Below, piece after piece: positions 10,262 to 44,402 of a DNA stretch of 64,000 bases (its first letter is position 1; each line of letters begins with the position of its first letter). Position numbers and translations under genes: made by a program. The DNA lies in assembly GCA_013368325.1 (NCBI GenBank), contig JAACJK010000163.1, positions 1,054,001 to 1,118,000 of the forward strand, written 5' to 3'. Under the pieces are notes generated by a model, which saw only the letters and a list, made by a program, of their open reading frames with translations, was not told the origin of the DNA and ran no database searches. The DNA comes from Ephemerocybe angulata. Lineage: Eukaryota > Basidiomycota > Agaricomycetes > Agaricales > Psathyrellaceae.

Positions 10262-10270
10262 GGCTGCGGG
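10262..10270. repeat. Target-site duplication, left copy (9 bp)
   Basis: GGCTGCGGG, identical to 16286-16294, directly outside the two inverted ends of the 6-kb element. Confidence 0.85.
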
Positions 10271-10373
10271 TAGGCTCGAAAACCAGCCGTTACGGAGCAG
10301 GGGTTATGGGGAATAGCTCCAGTAACGGCTGGTCAAACTGCATCAGGCGCGAGTACAGTGGAATTTTAAACTC
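10271..10373. repeat. Left terminal inverted repeat with hairpin
   Basis: Outer end TAGGCTCGAAAACCAG. The hairpin arms are ACCAGCCGTTAC (10282-10293) and GTAACGGCTGGT (10322-10333). The inner conserved block is at 10334-10373, ending in TTTTAAACTC. Confidence 0.85.
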
Positions 10374-10416
10374 AGCAGCATACTAAATTAGGAATTTCCG
10401 ATCAATATTACCTGGC

Positions 10417-10430
10417 GCGCGTCGACGCGC
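10417..10430. promoter_or_regulatory. MluI-box-like palindrome upstream of helicase
   Basis: GCGCGTCGACGCGC is a perfect 14-bp palindrome about 110 bp before the helicase start. It carries the ACGCG core on both strands. In yeasts this core is bound by the MBF (Mbp1-Swi6) factor at G1/S; binding here is inference. Confidence 0.4.
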
Positions 10431-10535
10431 TTATGCCCCTTTCTTTCAATTGTGGAGAGCTCAGACCACTGTCTCACCTCTATGTATATCTAAGGCATCG
10501 AATATACACTATGTTTTACTGTACCTACTCGTTCT

Positions 10536-13044
10536 ATGCTCAGAATGGCCCAGCCAACCCCTCCTTCGCTGCCAGCAATACCTCCAGTCCGGAAGTACAA
10601 GCCTTCCGAGGTCAACCTCTCCACTCTATCTGAGCGTGCTCTTGCCAAACTGAAGAAGAAACCATTCGAATGGCAGCTGAAGGCGGCTAAGCACCTTCTG
10701 TGTGGCGAGGATTTGATTTTGGATGTTGGAACGGGGTGTGGAAAGAGTTTAGTCTTCCAGCTGCCATTGCTGTTGGATGACATGGATATCAGCATGGTTG
10801 TCTCGCCCCTTTCGGCGCTCATGGTAGAGCAGGTGTGTTCCATTTATGTATAGTCTTTGGCCAAGTTATAACGCATTACCAGGCCGAAAGCTCAGCCTTA
10901 TCCACTGTTGCTGTATGTGCAGAGACATTAGAAGAAATGGGCCGGGACACTATGTTTGAAGTATGAGTCACCCGTTTGCTGTCTGTTATCTGGATGCCAT
11001 AGCTCATTTTTTCTACAGAGGATTGTGTCGGGATACTACCAGCAGATCCTAGTCTCACCAGAGATCGTAATCTCACCAGCATTTCGAAAGGCAGTGTTTT
11101 CGAAACAGAGTTTCACGGATCGGCTCCGTTGTGTCTGTGTAGATGAAGCGCACTGTATCAACATTTGGGGAGGGACTTTCCGACCGGACTATGCGCAGCT
11201 AGGAGTACTTCGGGGTCGTCTTCCTAGCTCCGTACCCCTCCTCATTGCATCCGCAACTCTGCCCACCCACGTACTCGAAGATGTTCGCCGGAAGCTGCAG
11301 CTCTTCCAAGACGCGCCCATCATCTCTGTTACCAATGATCGCCCCAACGTCAGTCTCAGTGTTCGTAAAATGCGATTCTCGGAGGAATCTAAAGCAGACT
11401 GTCGATTCCTTATCATGCTGAACGCACAGTCACCGAGCGACATTGCACAAACTGCGCTCTACGTGAATCAGAGGACAACTTGTGAGGATGCATGTGATGT
11501 ACTCCGAAAATGGGCTCGGCATGTGGGATTCTCAAGAGAGGCAGCATCCGCTGCCATAGTGTTCTATCATGCAAAAGTAGGGACTGCTAGGAAGAGGGAG
11601 ATTGAGGCAAAAGTAAAGTCAGGAGAAGTGCGAATTATAGTTTGCACAGAGGCACTTGGAATGGTATGTCTGTGTATTAATGTGTACGCAATCAGCTAAC
11701 TGTGAATCCAGGGTTGCGATATTCGCAGCTTGAAGCGCGTGGTAATGTGGCAGATGCCACTTTCATTCTGTGGACTCGTTCAGCGGGCAGGACGTGCTGC
11801 TCGGGACATGACACAGAAGGGAGAAGCTATTTTAATTGTTTCTGGGGCAACAATTGCGAAGGGTGTCTCGGAGACGCAAATGTCAGTTGCATTGGAGGAA
11901 GGTGTGCTTGAGCATGAGTCAGAGAACCGTGCTGAGGATGAGGAAGAGAGTCTCAGAAATGAAGGGATAGCGGTTGGTCCTGGGAATGAGCTAGAGTCCG
12001 TTGAGGAGCTCGGGGTTCGCGTTGGGCGTACACAAGCAGCAACAAAGTCGAAAGGTAAAGGGAAGCGTGCTGATGAGCGCTATAACCAGCACGAGCTCTC
12101 TGCCCTCAATAAATATGTTAGTGGAGAGTGTTGCCGCAGGGAAGTCTGGAATGTGTTTTTTGGCAATGAACGCAAACGTAGGCAGAGATTTATTCAAGCA
12201 GGCTACTGATACTTACTAGTTACCTGTGCATCTAGTTCAACTGCAGTACCCGGCTACTTCAACATTTCGACCAGACCCGAGCTTACTCTGCTGCGATGTG
12301 TGTGATCCTGATTCATTTAAAGTGGAGGATATCACATTAGAGAAGGTCAAGGGGCTTGCGAGAGGTCGGAAAAAGCAGCTTCCGTATGCCGAAGAGCTTG
12401 GGAAGCGGATCAGGACCAAGCTTGAGGCCTGGCGCGAGGACACTTTATTACAGGAGTACTATGGTGACTCTGACATGGTCTCCATCTCGGGCGAAGCACT
12501 GCTAGGAGACGATGTTATCAGCAAGATTGCCAACTGTGGCAAGTACCTCAGGACTGCCGAGGATCTTGCCCGACATGTTCGCTGGTTTCTGGCATTTGAA
12601 ACCGACACACAGAAGCTGACAACATATGGTCAGCTTCTCCTAAATGTGCTTGAGCCAATATACACAAAGCTGGATGAGGATATTGGGCTCGTAACACTTC
12701 CCGAGTCAGACGAGGATGTTCTAGAACCAGAGTCTGAGGATAGTGACAAAGCTGAGCCCTCGACAACTGCGGCGGTTCCTGCACCGCGTATTGTTGACCT
12801 TGGCGCTCAAGGTATTGACCCAGACACATTCTATGCTCAACGTCCTGGGGTTAGTACACGCGCAATGAGAAAACAGAGCAGCTCAGCGGTACCACCATCC
12901 CAACCGCCTGTGGCTGCTCTGCCGGTCACTGCCCCAAAGCGTGGAACCAAACGCCCCCCTCCAGATGTGGCAGCACCCGAACGGGGGATTAAACGTGGTC
13001 CTGGGAGACCTCGAGGCAGTAGAGCACGGGGAAGAGGAAAATGA
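10536..13044 (+). CDS. RecQ-type DNA helicase encoded by the mobile element
   Basis: Five exons: 10536-10832, 10883-10960, 11019-11663, 11712-12177, 12236-13044; 764 residues. Walker A is GTGCGKS (about 65-71), the DEAH box lies in CVCVDEAHCI (about 167-170), motif III is LIASATLP, and motif VI is QRAGRAARD (about 364-372). A RecQ-like zinc-binding region follows: GECCRREVWNVFFG, then LLCCDVCD. The first cysteine group and the second are joined across the last intron, which supports that splice. The C-terminus is low complexity and ends in a basic GRPRGSRARGRG tail, probably DNA-binding. A second in-frame ATG lies three codons on. The gene lies wholly inside the repeat-bounded element, convergent with the DUF6589 gene, so a role in transposition or its repair is inferred. 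Confidence 0.85.
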
Positions 13045-13066
13045 TTACATTTAGACTACACGACTA

Positions 13067-16000
13067 TCACTCAAACAATTCTCCCGCCAATGTATCGACT
13101 AAATTCTCTACCAATGCGACGACCTCTTTGGGGTCAGATCCAACGGGAAACTCATCCTCGTCGAGTCCGAGGTCATCTTCTGTGAATCCAGAGGGGGAGC
13201 CGAAGTCATTTGTGTTGCCGTCATCTTCGTCCTCATCTTCGCTGGCATCGGAGTCTGAGGTTGGATTCGGAGTCGGGGGTGCAGCTGTGGTGGACTTGAA
13301 GTCGGCTTTCTGGGTATCTTCACGATAGTTCTTGAATGCGGTTGGCGTGTTTGAAGATGCAGTGCCAGCTGCAAGTAAGTCACGGGCAGGAACTGCTCCA
13401 CGGTTACCAGGTCGCTCGGGGGTGTACGATTGAATGGCTTGGGATTCAAGGTGGGACTGAAGCGTGTTGAGATCAGCCTCCGTTGATGGTGATGTGTGCG
13501 ACTTGCTGTTGTGAGGGGTCTTGAAGTTTGACTGAACTTGCCGGATGACGTCTCGGAGACAGAAGATGCACACCGAGACTATACCAAGCCAACGCCAGCT
13601 TCGGTTCGATCCCTTTGCCGTGTAGATGATCTTAATCGGTGTCAGCAATGTCATTTATCGTTGTATTCATACCACGTACCTTCAACCAAAAGTTTTGGTG
13701 CTCCTGCAATAAGTCTATCTCCTTGAATCCATTGGCCTTCCCTGAGAGATTCACGAGCCAATTCATCAAAGACCCTTGTCTATCCAAAGCTATATCAGTG
13801 ATTTGAACCTCCAGAATGACAATAACGGACGCACCGGAGGTCTGGCGCCATCTGAGATAGATCCCGAAGATGATGGAACAGGACGTCAGCATATTTCGGC
13901 ATTTTACCCGTTCCACGAAACATAAGTAACCAGTACGTTAAGACATTCACAACTGTCCCAACGTCACCTCGCTTGACCGCCCCTTGAAGTGCTACAAATA
14001 TCAATGCATCACGGTTGAACAGAATGATGTTCTCGAGAGTGACATCTCGGTCGACCTTCTTACGCAGCATAGCCACGCGACGCGCTGAGCAGAGCTCACG
14101 GAATACCTTTAGCGTTACAAGGCGAAGGGAAGCATGGTCCGTGATCTCCTTAATCCAGATATCGAGCTTCTTGCCCGAGTGAATGCGATAGCCGTCGAGG
14201 ATGTTGGCCGGCAGAGCGAGCTTTGTGATGAGCTCGAGAACAGGCCGATATGGTGCCGGGGTTTTAGCTTGCCAGCCGACACTGATGGGTTTTCTGCCCA
14301 GTAGCGAGTTCACCTTCCAGAGAGACCACGGAGCTGGACTGCCCGAGGTACCCCAGTACTCGTTTGCAACACACCGTATTCCCGCCATCTTCGCATGAAA
14401 CAGCCCAAACTGGGGCTTCATGAACTTGCTCGGATTGTCGACGAGGCGGGCATCATCACGGCGTGAGCCAGACGCCTAAACATATCTCAGTATGTATCAT
14501 TGAGTTGAGATAAAGAACCCTTACCGAGTCTATAAGCGAAACAGTTAGCTGATCACCGTGCGTGAAGAAGATACCGTGTTGCTGTATTTCGTCCTCGTCA
14601 AGACCGAGAGTCTTGAAGAATATGTGGTCAATGACTTCCAGCGTGCCGTCGATAGTGGATTCGTCAATGAGCGCAGCCGGGAGTGGATACTGAGCTGATT
14701 TGTGAAGGGGTATGGCGTTGATCATGGGAGGAGCGAGGTTGGTGCCGGTGTTCTCAAGGCGCTTTCGTAGGGCAGGGAAACTCTGCATTAGGAGGTCTTC
14801 CAGGTGCCACAGCAAGCACGTCTCGAGTTCCTGAATCTGTTGGCGCGTTGGGAGTAGATCAGTCTCGGGCTTGAAGTCAAATGTGATGCGACGGGTGAGT
14901 CGAGGAGGAAGGAGGGAGAGCGGGAGCGATCCTGGGGCCACAGCAAACAGCGGGATGAGGGTAGCGGTCGTCCCGTTGTCGAAATGGTCCTTCGAAGCTA
15001 CCCGTTGCTCGTTGACGCGAAAGGGAATGTTTACATTGTCCCAGGCAATCATACAGGGCTGGGTACGAACGAGGCGCTTCAATTCGGTGACCCGCTCGCG
15101 ACTGAGCTCCTTTAGCTTAATCGTTGCCGAGGTATACGAAAGCGCGAAGCCTGCGTGATTGAGGACCTCGTAAAGCGATTTCGTCGCCCCGCACGCATAC
15201 AGGTAAAGGCTGGCGACGATCTGGTAGGTGCTGGCGCGCTCGTGGCGTGTCTGGGCGACCGTACTCAGCATGTTGGCCAGAACCTGTACAAACTGTGTTG
15301 AGCAATGCGAGAATCGTAAAATATACGGTTACTCACCACATCACGTTTCCTTCGAGAGTCTTCGTCACCCTCCTTGTATAGGAGAACCGTGGATAGGGCT
15401 TGGACGAGGTTTGGGGCGGCTTCTTTGGCGTCGAGAAGGAGTTGTGGAAGTGAGTAGCGCGCTAGAGCGCTCGAGACGTTTGCACCCTCCTCTGGGACTA
15501 GCATCGCAGCTAGAGCTGCCCCTTCACGTTGGAGGACGTCCAGAAACCGTTTGGAGACCCATTCGTCGATGAGAGGTCGCTCAATGCGGTCGGCGAGAAA
15601 TCCGAGCATGTCGGTCCCTCGGTTACTGTGTCGATAGCTTCGGGTGAGCGCTGCACTAATTTGCTGATTCTTCGTGGTATGTAAGGCGGCCTGGAAGTCC
15701 CAAAGCGAGGTAAAGCCTATGTAAATAAGTTTCAGTGCAGTTTCAGAGCCTGGAGGAATGAATCCACGTACCTGCTTGTGTGACAGCTGCTAGCACGGTC
15801 CCGAGCTTTTCGTCCTCTGCCTTCTCCCTCTCCTGCGCCCTATCCTCCTTCTCCTGCTCCAAACGCGCCTCGTTTCTTGCCTTCCATCGCGCTGATGCAA
15901 GAGCTTGACTCTCAGCTGTGATTTCTTCGAATACACGTCGCTTCTTGGTGGTCGGCGGGGCCATGGGTGTGTAAACTAACATCTTCATGGGCGTCGTCGC

Positions 16001-16069
16001 GTTTTCCTTGCCATTTCTCCGTTTTGCGGGCGTGACATTGAAGAGTGGGGTAGTCGGTAGTGGATTCAT
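13067..16069 (-). CDS. DUF6589-family protein, candidate transposase of the element
   Basis: Six exons: 16069-15772, 15716-15337, 15292-14525, 14475-13835, 13779-13680, 13630-13067; 916 residues. The N-terminus is disordered, then a Glu/Arg-rich helix. The core matches my memory of the DUF6589 family of Agaricomycetes: MIAWDNVNIPF (Asp about 311), FFTHGDQLT (Asp about 473), FGLFHAKMA (His about 509) with NEYWG (Glu about 521), IILFNRDALIFVAL, LLMFRGTGK and LLQEHQNFWLK. The C-terminus is acidic. The family has no assigned function that I know. Asp-Asp-His/Glu after predicted strands, inside an element with terminal repeats, suggests an RNase H-fold transposase, but this is inference. Exon 5 must use the acceptor before 13779; the one 14 bp earlier gives a stop. 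Confidence 0.8.
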
Positions 16070-16127
16070 CGAAAAAATTGGCCGTAAAGGCGCGAGTAGA
16101 GCGAGAAATGGGTTTATTGGGCGTTCG

Positions 16128-16137
16128 ACGCGACGCG
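16128..16137. promoter_or_regulatory. Tandem ACGCG motifs upstream of DUF6589 gene
   Basis: Two adjacent ACGCG cores (ACGCGACGCG), about 60 bp upstream of the DUF6589 start. They resemble the MluI-box motifs ahead of the helicase and RAD9 genes. MBF control is inference. Confidence 0.35.
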
Positions 16138-16183
16138 CCGTGGTGGTAAATGGCAGGGGTTGATCCCCGTTTAGAAACCCGCG

Positions 16184-16285
16184 GAGTTTAAAATTCTACT
16201 CTACTCGCGCCTGATGCAGTTCAACCAGTCTCCTTGGGGTGTATTCCAAGTACTACCACACCCCAAGGTCCTGGTTTCGAGTCTA
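16184..16285. repeat. Right terminal inverted repeat with hairpin
   Basis: Inner block GAGTTTAAAATTC at 16184, then GCGCCTGATGCAGTT. The hairpin arms are CCTTGGGGTGT (16232-16242) and ACACCCCAAGG (16258-16268). The outer end is CTGGTTTCGAGTCTA. The hairpin differs from the left one in sequence but keeps the pairing. Confidence 0.85.
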
Positions 16286-16294
16286 GGCTGCGGG
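16286..16294. repeat. Target-site duplication, right copy (9 bp)
   Basis: GGCTGCGGG, matching 10262-10270 exactly. Confidence 0.85.
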
Positions 16295-43879: not shown

Positions 43880-44009
43880 TAACCTGGTTCACCCTCAGTT
43901 CTGATATTGGGCGTCAAACTCGTCTCCTCTCCGACATATGGCAGTAACCTGGTTCACCCTCAGTTCTGATATTGGGCGTCAAACTCGTCTCCTCTCCGAC
44001 ATATGGCAG
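43880..44009. repeat. 65-bp unit in perfect tandem duplication
   Basis: 43880-43944 and 43945-44009 are identical, starting TAACCTGGTTCACCCTCAGT and ending GACATATGGCAG. There is no coding frame around it. Confidence 0.9.
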
Positions 44010-44261: not shown

Positions 44262-44402
44262 GTCCGTAATAGGCTCGAGACCAGCCGTTCCTGGAGATTT
44301 TGGGGATGGTGGTATAAGTATGGAGTTGCTCCAGTAACATTCCAGTATCCTTCCACCCCCAAAAATCGCCCTCAGGAGCTGGTTTCGAGTCTAGTCCGCT
44401 AA
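44262..44402. repeat. Target duplications around the 124-bp element
   Basis: GTCCGTAA (44262-44269) left and GTCCGCTAA (44394-44402) right: a 9-bp duplication with one base lost on the left. Confidence 0.6.
44270..44393. mobile_element. 124-bp MITE related to the 6-kb DUF6589/helicase element
   Basis: It starts TAGGCTCGAGACCAGCCGTT and ends GGAGCTGGTTTCGAGTCTA, matching the outer ends of the 6,015-bp element. It also shares GCTCCAGTAAC with that element's left repeat. The whole can fold as one imperfect hairpin: CTGGAGATTTTGGGGATGG pairs with CCACCCCCAAAAATCGCCC and neighbours. No coding capacity. It was probably mobilised by the proteins of the larger element (inference). Confidence 0.75.

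Follow-up and report, generated by a model that had tools for sequence, protein, structure and literature searches.

A probable AcademH-type DNA transposon with RecQ-family helicase and DUF6589 genes in Ephemerocybe angulata

A 64,000-nt stretch of the Ephemerocybe angulata genome (GCA_013368325.1, contig JAACJK010000163.1, labelled C117 here, positions 1,054,001 to 1,118,000; hereafter the window; other C numbers denote further contigs of this genome) was analysed for a transposable element carrying a RecQ-family helicase gene and a DUF6589 gene (Table 1). An earlier note on this DNA had described a complete DNA transposon of about 6 kb with these two genes, intact, convergent and 22 bp apart, and an exact 9-bp direct repeat just outside its ends. 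All of this was borne out: the element measured 6015 bp, both genes were open with stop codons ending at 13044 and 13067, the ends were recurrent, and the duplication was exact at 9 bp and not extendable to 10. A 9-bp repeat combined with inverted ends matching at at least 10 of 14 positions arose twice in 200 dinucleotide shuffles of a 7.5-kb region and was present once in the real sequence. No paralogous empty site was found in this genome, each 500-bp flank matching itself only.

Table 1. Positions of the element, its genes and related features in the window
Feature	Position	Strand	Remarks
Left target-site duplication	10262-10270		GGCTGCGGG; identical over 9 bp to 16286-16294
Complete transposon	10271-16285		6015 bp; ends TAGGCTCGAAAACCAG / TAGACTCGAAACCAG inverted; ends recur elsewhere in the genome
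Left end	10271-10387	+	14-nt terminal repeat, own palindrome, 59-nt inverted arm (10329-10387)
Left subterminal palindrome	10282-10333	+	14-bp stem ACCAGCCGTTACGG, one mismatch
RecQ-family helicase gene	10545-10832, 10883-10960, 11019-11663, 11712-12177, 12236-13044	+	761 aa; 100% to P0121
DUF6589 gene	16069-15772, 15716-15337, 15283-14525, 14475-13835, 13779-13680, 13630-13067	-	913 aa; presumed triad D308, D470, E719
Right end	16170-16285	-	Terminal repeat; palindrome of its own at 16231-16269 (stem of 12 bp with one mismatch); inner inverted arm at 16170-16228
Right target-site duplication	16286-16294		GGCTGCGGG; identical over 9 bp to 10262-10270
Mini-element	44263-44393		131 bp; same two end types (TAGGCTCG... 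/ TAGACTCG...); flanks GTCCGTAA / GTCCGCTAA

The helicase model was 100% identical to NCBI protein D9611_000349 (P0121). PF00270 and PF00271 were matched above cut-off, and TIGR00614 (recQ_fam) was matched with E 2.3e-52 and 178.4 bits, under the model cut-off of 219.8. Walker A (GTGCGKS), DEAH, SAT and QRAGRAAR motifs were present, and the best PDB matches were RecQ, RECQ4, RECQ5, RECQ1, WRN and BLM.

The DUF6589 model (6 exons, exon ends chosen by the analyst without independent annotation) was 96% identical to the relative P0001 over residues 230-790. Pfam DUF6589 (PF20231) was matched above its cut-off of 27 by the window exons and at 320.6 bits by P0001. Among 7992 scored candidates, 142 DUF6589 proteins were obtained at E <= 0.001; named proteins among the best 120 of these belonged, judging by name, to mushroom-forming fungi. 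The predicted fold was an RNase H DDE core with an all-helical insertion before the last E, and on this fold and the triad the protein is probably a DDE transposase. For the third catalytic residue, E694 (P0001 numbering) was kept in every DUF6589 group of this genome whose motif was reached by the profile. In the same numbering, E493 was rejected (T or another residue in other groups, by eye), as was D651 (one residue off the E of other groups, by eye). P0001 itself, the copy of another strain (DFP72), carries D in place of the presumed catalytic E. A Foldseek search of the PDB with the first DUF6589 model gave nothing at E <= 0.001, and the DUF6589 profile gave 14 matches to PDB sequences at E <= 1 (best E 0.12), none of them a transposase. 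The MULE transposase domain (PF10551) was matched neither at E <= 1 by P0001 and P0002 nor at E <= 0.1 by the window exons, and MULE membership was rejected on that ground. Literature searches found no paper naming DUF6589, a result that says nothing on other literature or Repbase, and nothing relevant for PF20231.

Inverted ends of about 100 bp had been proposed in the earlier note. The inverted match stood, and a single continuous 103-bp inverted repeat did not: the terminal 14 nt matched at 11 of 14 positions, the following ~45 nt were unlike between the ends, each with a separate palindrome, and an inner arm of 59 nt was common to both (85% identity). Palindrome types differed by end (left CCAGCCGTTAC/GTAACGGCTGG, right CTTGGGGTGT/ACACCCCAAG). 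Ten ends of six elements were examined: 9 had stems of at least 10 bp, with one mismatch allowed, a length reached by 6 of 300 single-base shuffles of ends. All four elements with both ends compared (window, C121, C125, C86) had TAGG at one end and TAGA at the other.

The end pattern TAGRCTCGAAAN{0,1}CCAG was matched 17 times in the genome, vs 0 for a reversed control; a looser pattern (<=3 mismatches) was not enriched within the window alone (4 found vs 2.96 expected). Both ends were located for 12 independent copies, the identical C46, C47 and C187 being entered once. Exact 9-bp duplications, not extendable to 10, flanked seven of these (window, C121, C125:3.0M, C114:301k, C139, C207, C117:1145k); four were nearly exact, with one or two mismatches at C13:18038, C46 and C38 and a one-base indel at the window mini-element; and the C86 copy had none. 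The share of copies with a duplication is a biased rate, because scans for the second end were guided by the duplication. Five further copies had no acceptable second end (C13:206890, C117:1031871, C125:2766885, C125:3508694, C215), the candidates at the first four being weak (at least 4 flank mismatches). A single clear end was seen at C114:79000-88900 and a right end alone at C185. The earlier note had proposed looking for further copies that share the ends and carry 9-bp duplications of their own; such copies were found, and C121 and C125 were diverged full-length elements, each with both genes and similar ends. Ends of one kind enclosed both gene orders, which was convergent in the window and C121 and divergent in C125. 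A 789-bp derivative (C114:301230-302018) lacked two inner stretches, with 3 bp shared at each junction, and matched the window element at 86.5% over the left 533 bp, 99.1% over the inner right 229 bp and 100% over the last 33 bp. It is apparently a hybrid between two related elements, a make-up that would fit recent activity and repair of the gap left by excision.

A helicase match lay within 5 kb of 22 of the 39 DUF6589 clusters in this genome. These pairs were convergent in 15 cases and divergent in 7 (14 vs 8 by script, before correction of C86:815016, which had been called divergent after being paired in error with the helicase of its neighbour); they are not independent, as C24/C143/C144, C151/C154 and the C77 pair look like mutual duplicates. 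Across species, 16 of the 38 closest helicase relatives listed (P0121-P0158), two of them from E. angulata, apparently shared a contig with a DUF6589 protein among the best 120 of 142, a proxy for linkage that used one contig value per cluster.

The ends, the exact 9-bp duplication, the open genes, the related full-length copies and the small derivatives that keep the ends were shown; the following mechanism is proposed. The DUF6589 protein would be a DDE enzyme of the RNase H fold, its long all-helical insertion resembling those of Hermes, P element and RAG1. It would bind the terminal TAGRCTCG and the subterminal palindromes, excise the element and join it to the target at cuts staggered by 9 bp, whose repair would leave the duplication of that length. 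The RecQ-type helicase probably opens or remodels DNA at the palindromic ends, or helps to repair the target or the gap that excision leaves; its role would be accessory, strand cutting coming from elsewhere.

The AcademH lineage of the Academ superfamily reportedly goes back to Kojima (2020, Mob DNA 11:15). As far as excerpts of the sources cited here go, AcademH duplications are 9 or 10 bp, seemingly in relation to its helicase, and those of AcademX 3 or 4 bp (PMC10045372); fungal Academ elements encode PF00270 / recQ_fam helicases, often annotated as host genes (PMC6416283); AcademH occurs at low copy in Basidiomycota, Ascomycota and Mucoromycota (PMC10799480); and bivalve Academ consensus elements average 5565 bp (PMC10294476). 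The window element resembled these descriptions in its RecQ-type helicase, though the recQ_fam score was under cut-off, in duplication length (as counted above for the 12 two-ended copies), in its low copy number in a fungus and, by predicted fold and triad, in a DDD/E transposase. No difference from AcademH was shown, and the element, matched on described traits rather than transposase sequence, is probably a new member of that lineage. Since these excerpts give AcademH or fungal Academ a helicase of this type, duplications of this length and hosts of this group (PMC10045372, PMC6416283, PMC10799480), a named class exists, and the earlier statement that none was known did not hold.

Other classes were compared in the same way. 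Helitrons also carry a helicase; they encode HUH/PIF1 proteins and have neither terminal inverted repeats nor duplications, and membership was rejected on the inverted ends and duplication of the window element and the lack of an HUH/PIF1-type Pfam match in P0121. Transposases of hAT (Hermes) and P elements resemble the predicted DUF6589 fold in an RNase H DDE core with an all-helical insertion before the last E; neither was among its 14 PDB matches. Both groups make 8-bp duplications and have no helicase, and hAT membership was rejected on the 9-bp duplications.

We consider it highly likely that this E. angulata locus holds an AcademH-type DNA transposon of the DDE class, complete and autonomous, with DUF6589 as the cutting enzyme and the helicase as accessory. 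A DDE superfamily separate from AcademH could instead have recruited a RecQ-type helicase independently, with DUF6589 as its own transposase lineage; in its favour, the match of the element to AcademH is one of described traits, and RecQ helicases also occur in another superfamily, KolobokH (PMC9587614, in excerpt). This origin is unlikely given that the element agrees with the excerpted AcademH and fungal Academ descriptions in its host group, its type of helicase and its 9-bp duplication. We regard as similarly doubtful the proposal that DUF6589 marks an unrecognised mushroom-wide DDE superfamily that adopted RecQ independently of Academ, its asymmetric terminal palindromes serving as helicase-opened recognition sites.

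The Kolobok target is TTAA. A KolobokH-type element would share the RecQ helicase and fungal host (from the same excerpt), yet the duplications here were 9 bp long and varied in sequence, and the helicase was a separate, convergent gene on the opposite strand; KolobokH membership was rejected and appears very improbable. Least credible of all is that a host RecQ gene and a host DUF6589 gene came to lie together by chance, with unrelated repeats around them: 17 of the 39 DUF6589 clusters do lie without a helicase match within 5 kb, whereas at C121 and C125 the two genes again stand between these ends, flanked by different 9-bp duplications, and the linkage proxy extends to other species.

With the AcademH-type reading, DUF6589, a common "unknown" family of mushroom genomes, gains a functional interpretation. 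The genes for DUF6589 proteins and for the RecQ-like proteins beside them probably belong to mobile elements rather than to the host, which bears on gene counts and on claims of RecQ expansion in fungi. The additions beyond class assignment are DUF6589 as a probable DDE transposase, the subterminal palindromes and the two gene orders. The outcome is probably a useful annotation result and not a new class. The apparently intact autonomous element and its short derivatives, among them those of 58 and 789 bp, offer material for asking what makes a RecQ helicase necessary to a cut-and-paste transposon.

Several minor observations were made. Seven DUF6589 loci (C47, C55, C117:1453084, C118, C139, C184, C192) had equal scores, and the main match of each contained one TAA; none had a helicase match within 5 kb, and three lay on contigs of 29-36 kb. 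At C86:811665-821793, two adjoining copies differed at 3 positions in 4282 bp, neither with a duplication, and the first broke off inside its DUF6589 gene exactly at the left end of the second; the pair may be an unusual self-adjacent insertion, a repair product or an assembly join. The remaining long reading frames of the window had the appearance, by eye only, of ordinary host genes. Near the mini-element, a perfect 65-bp tandem duplication was present at 43880-44009.
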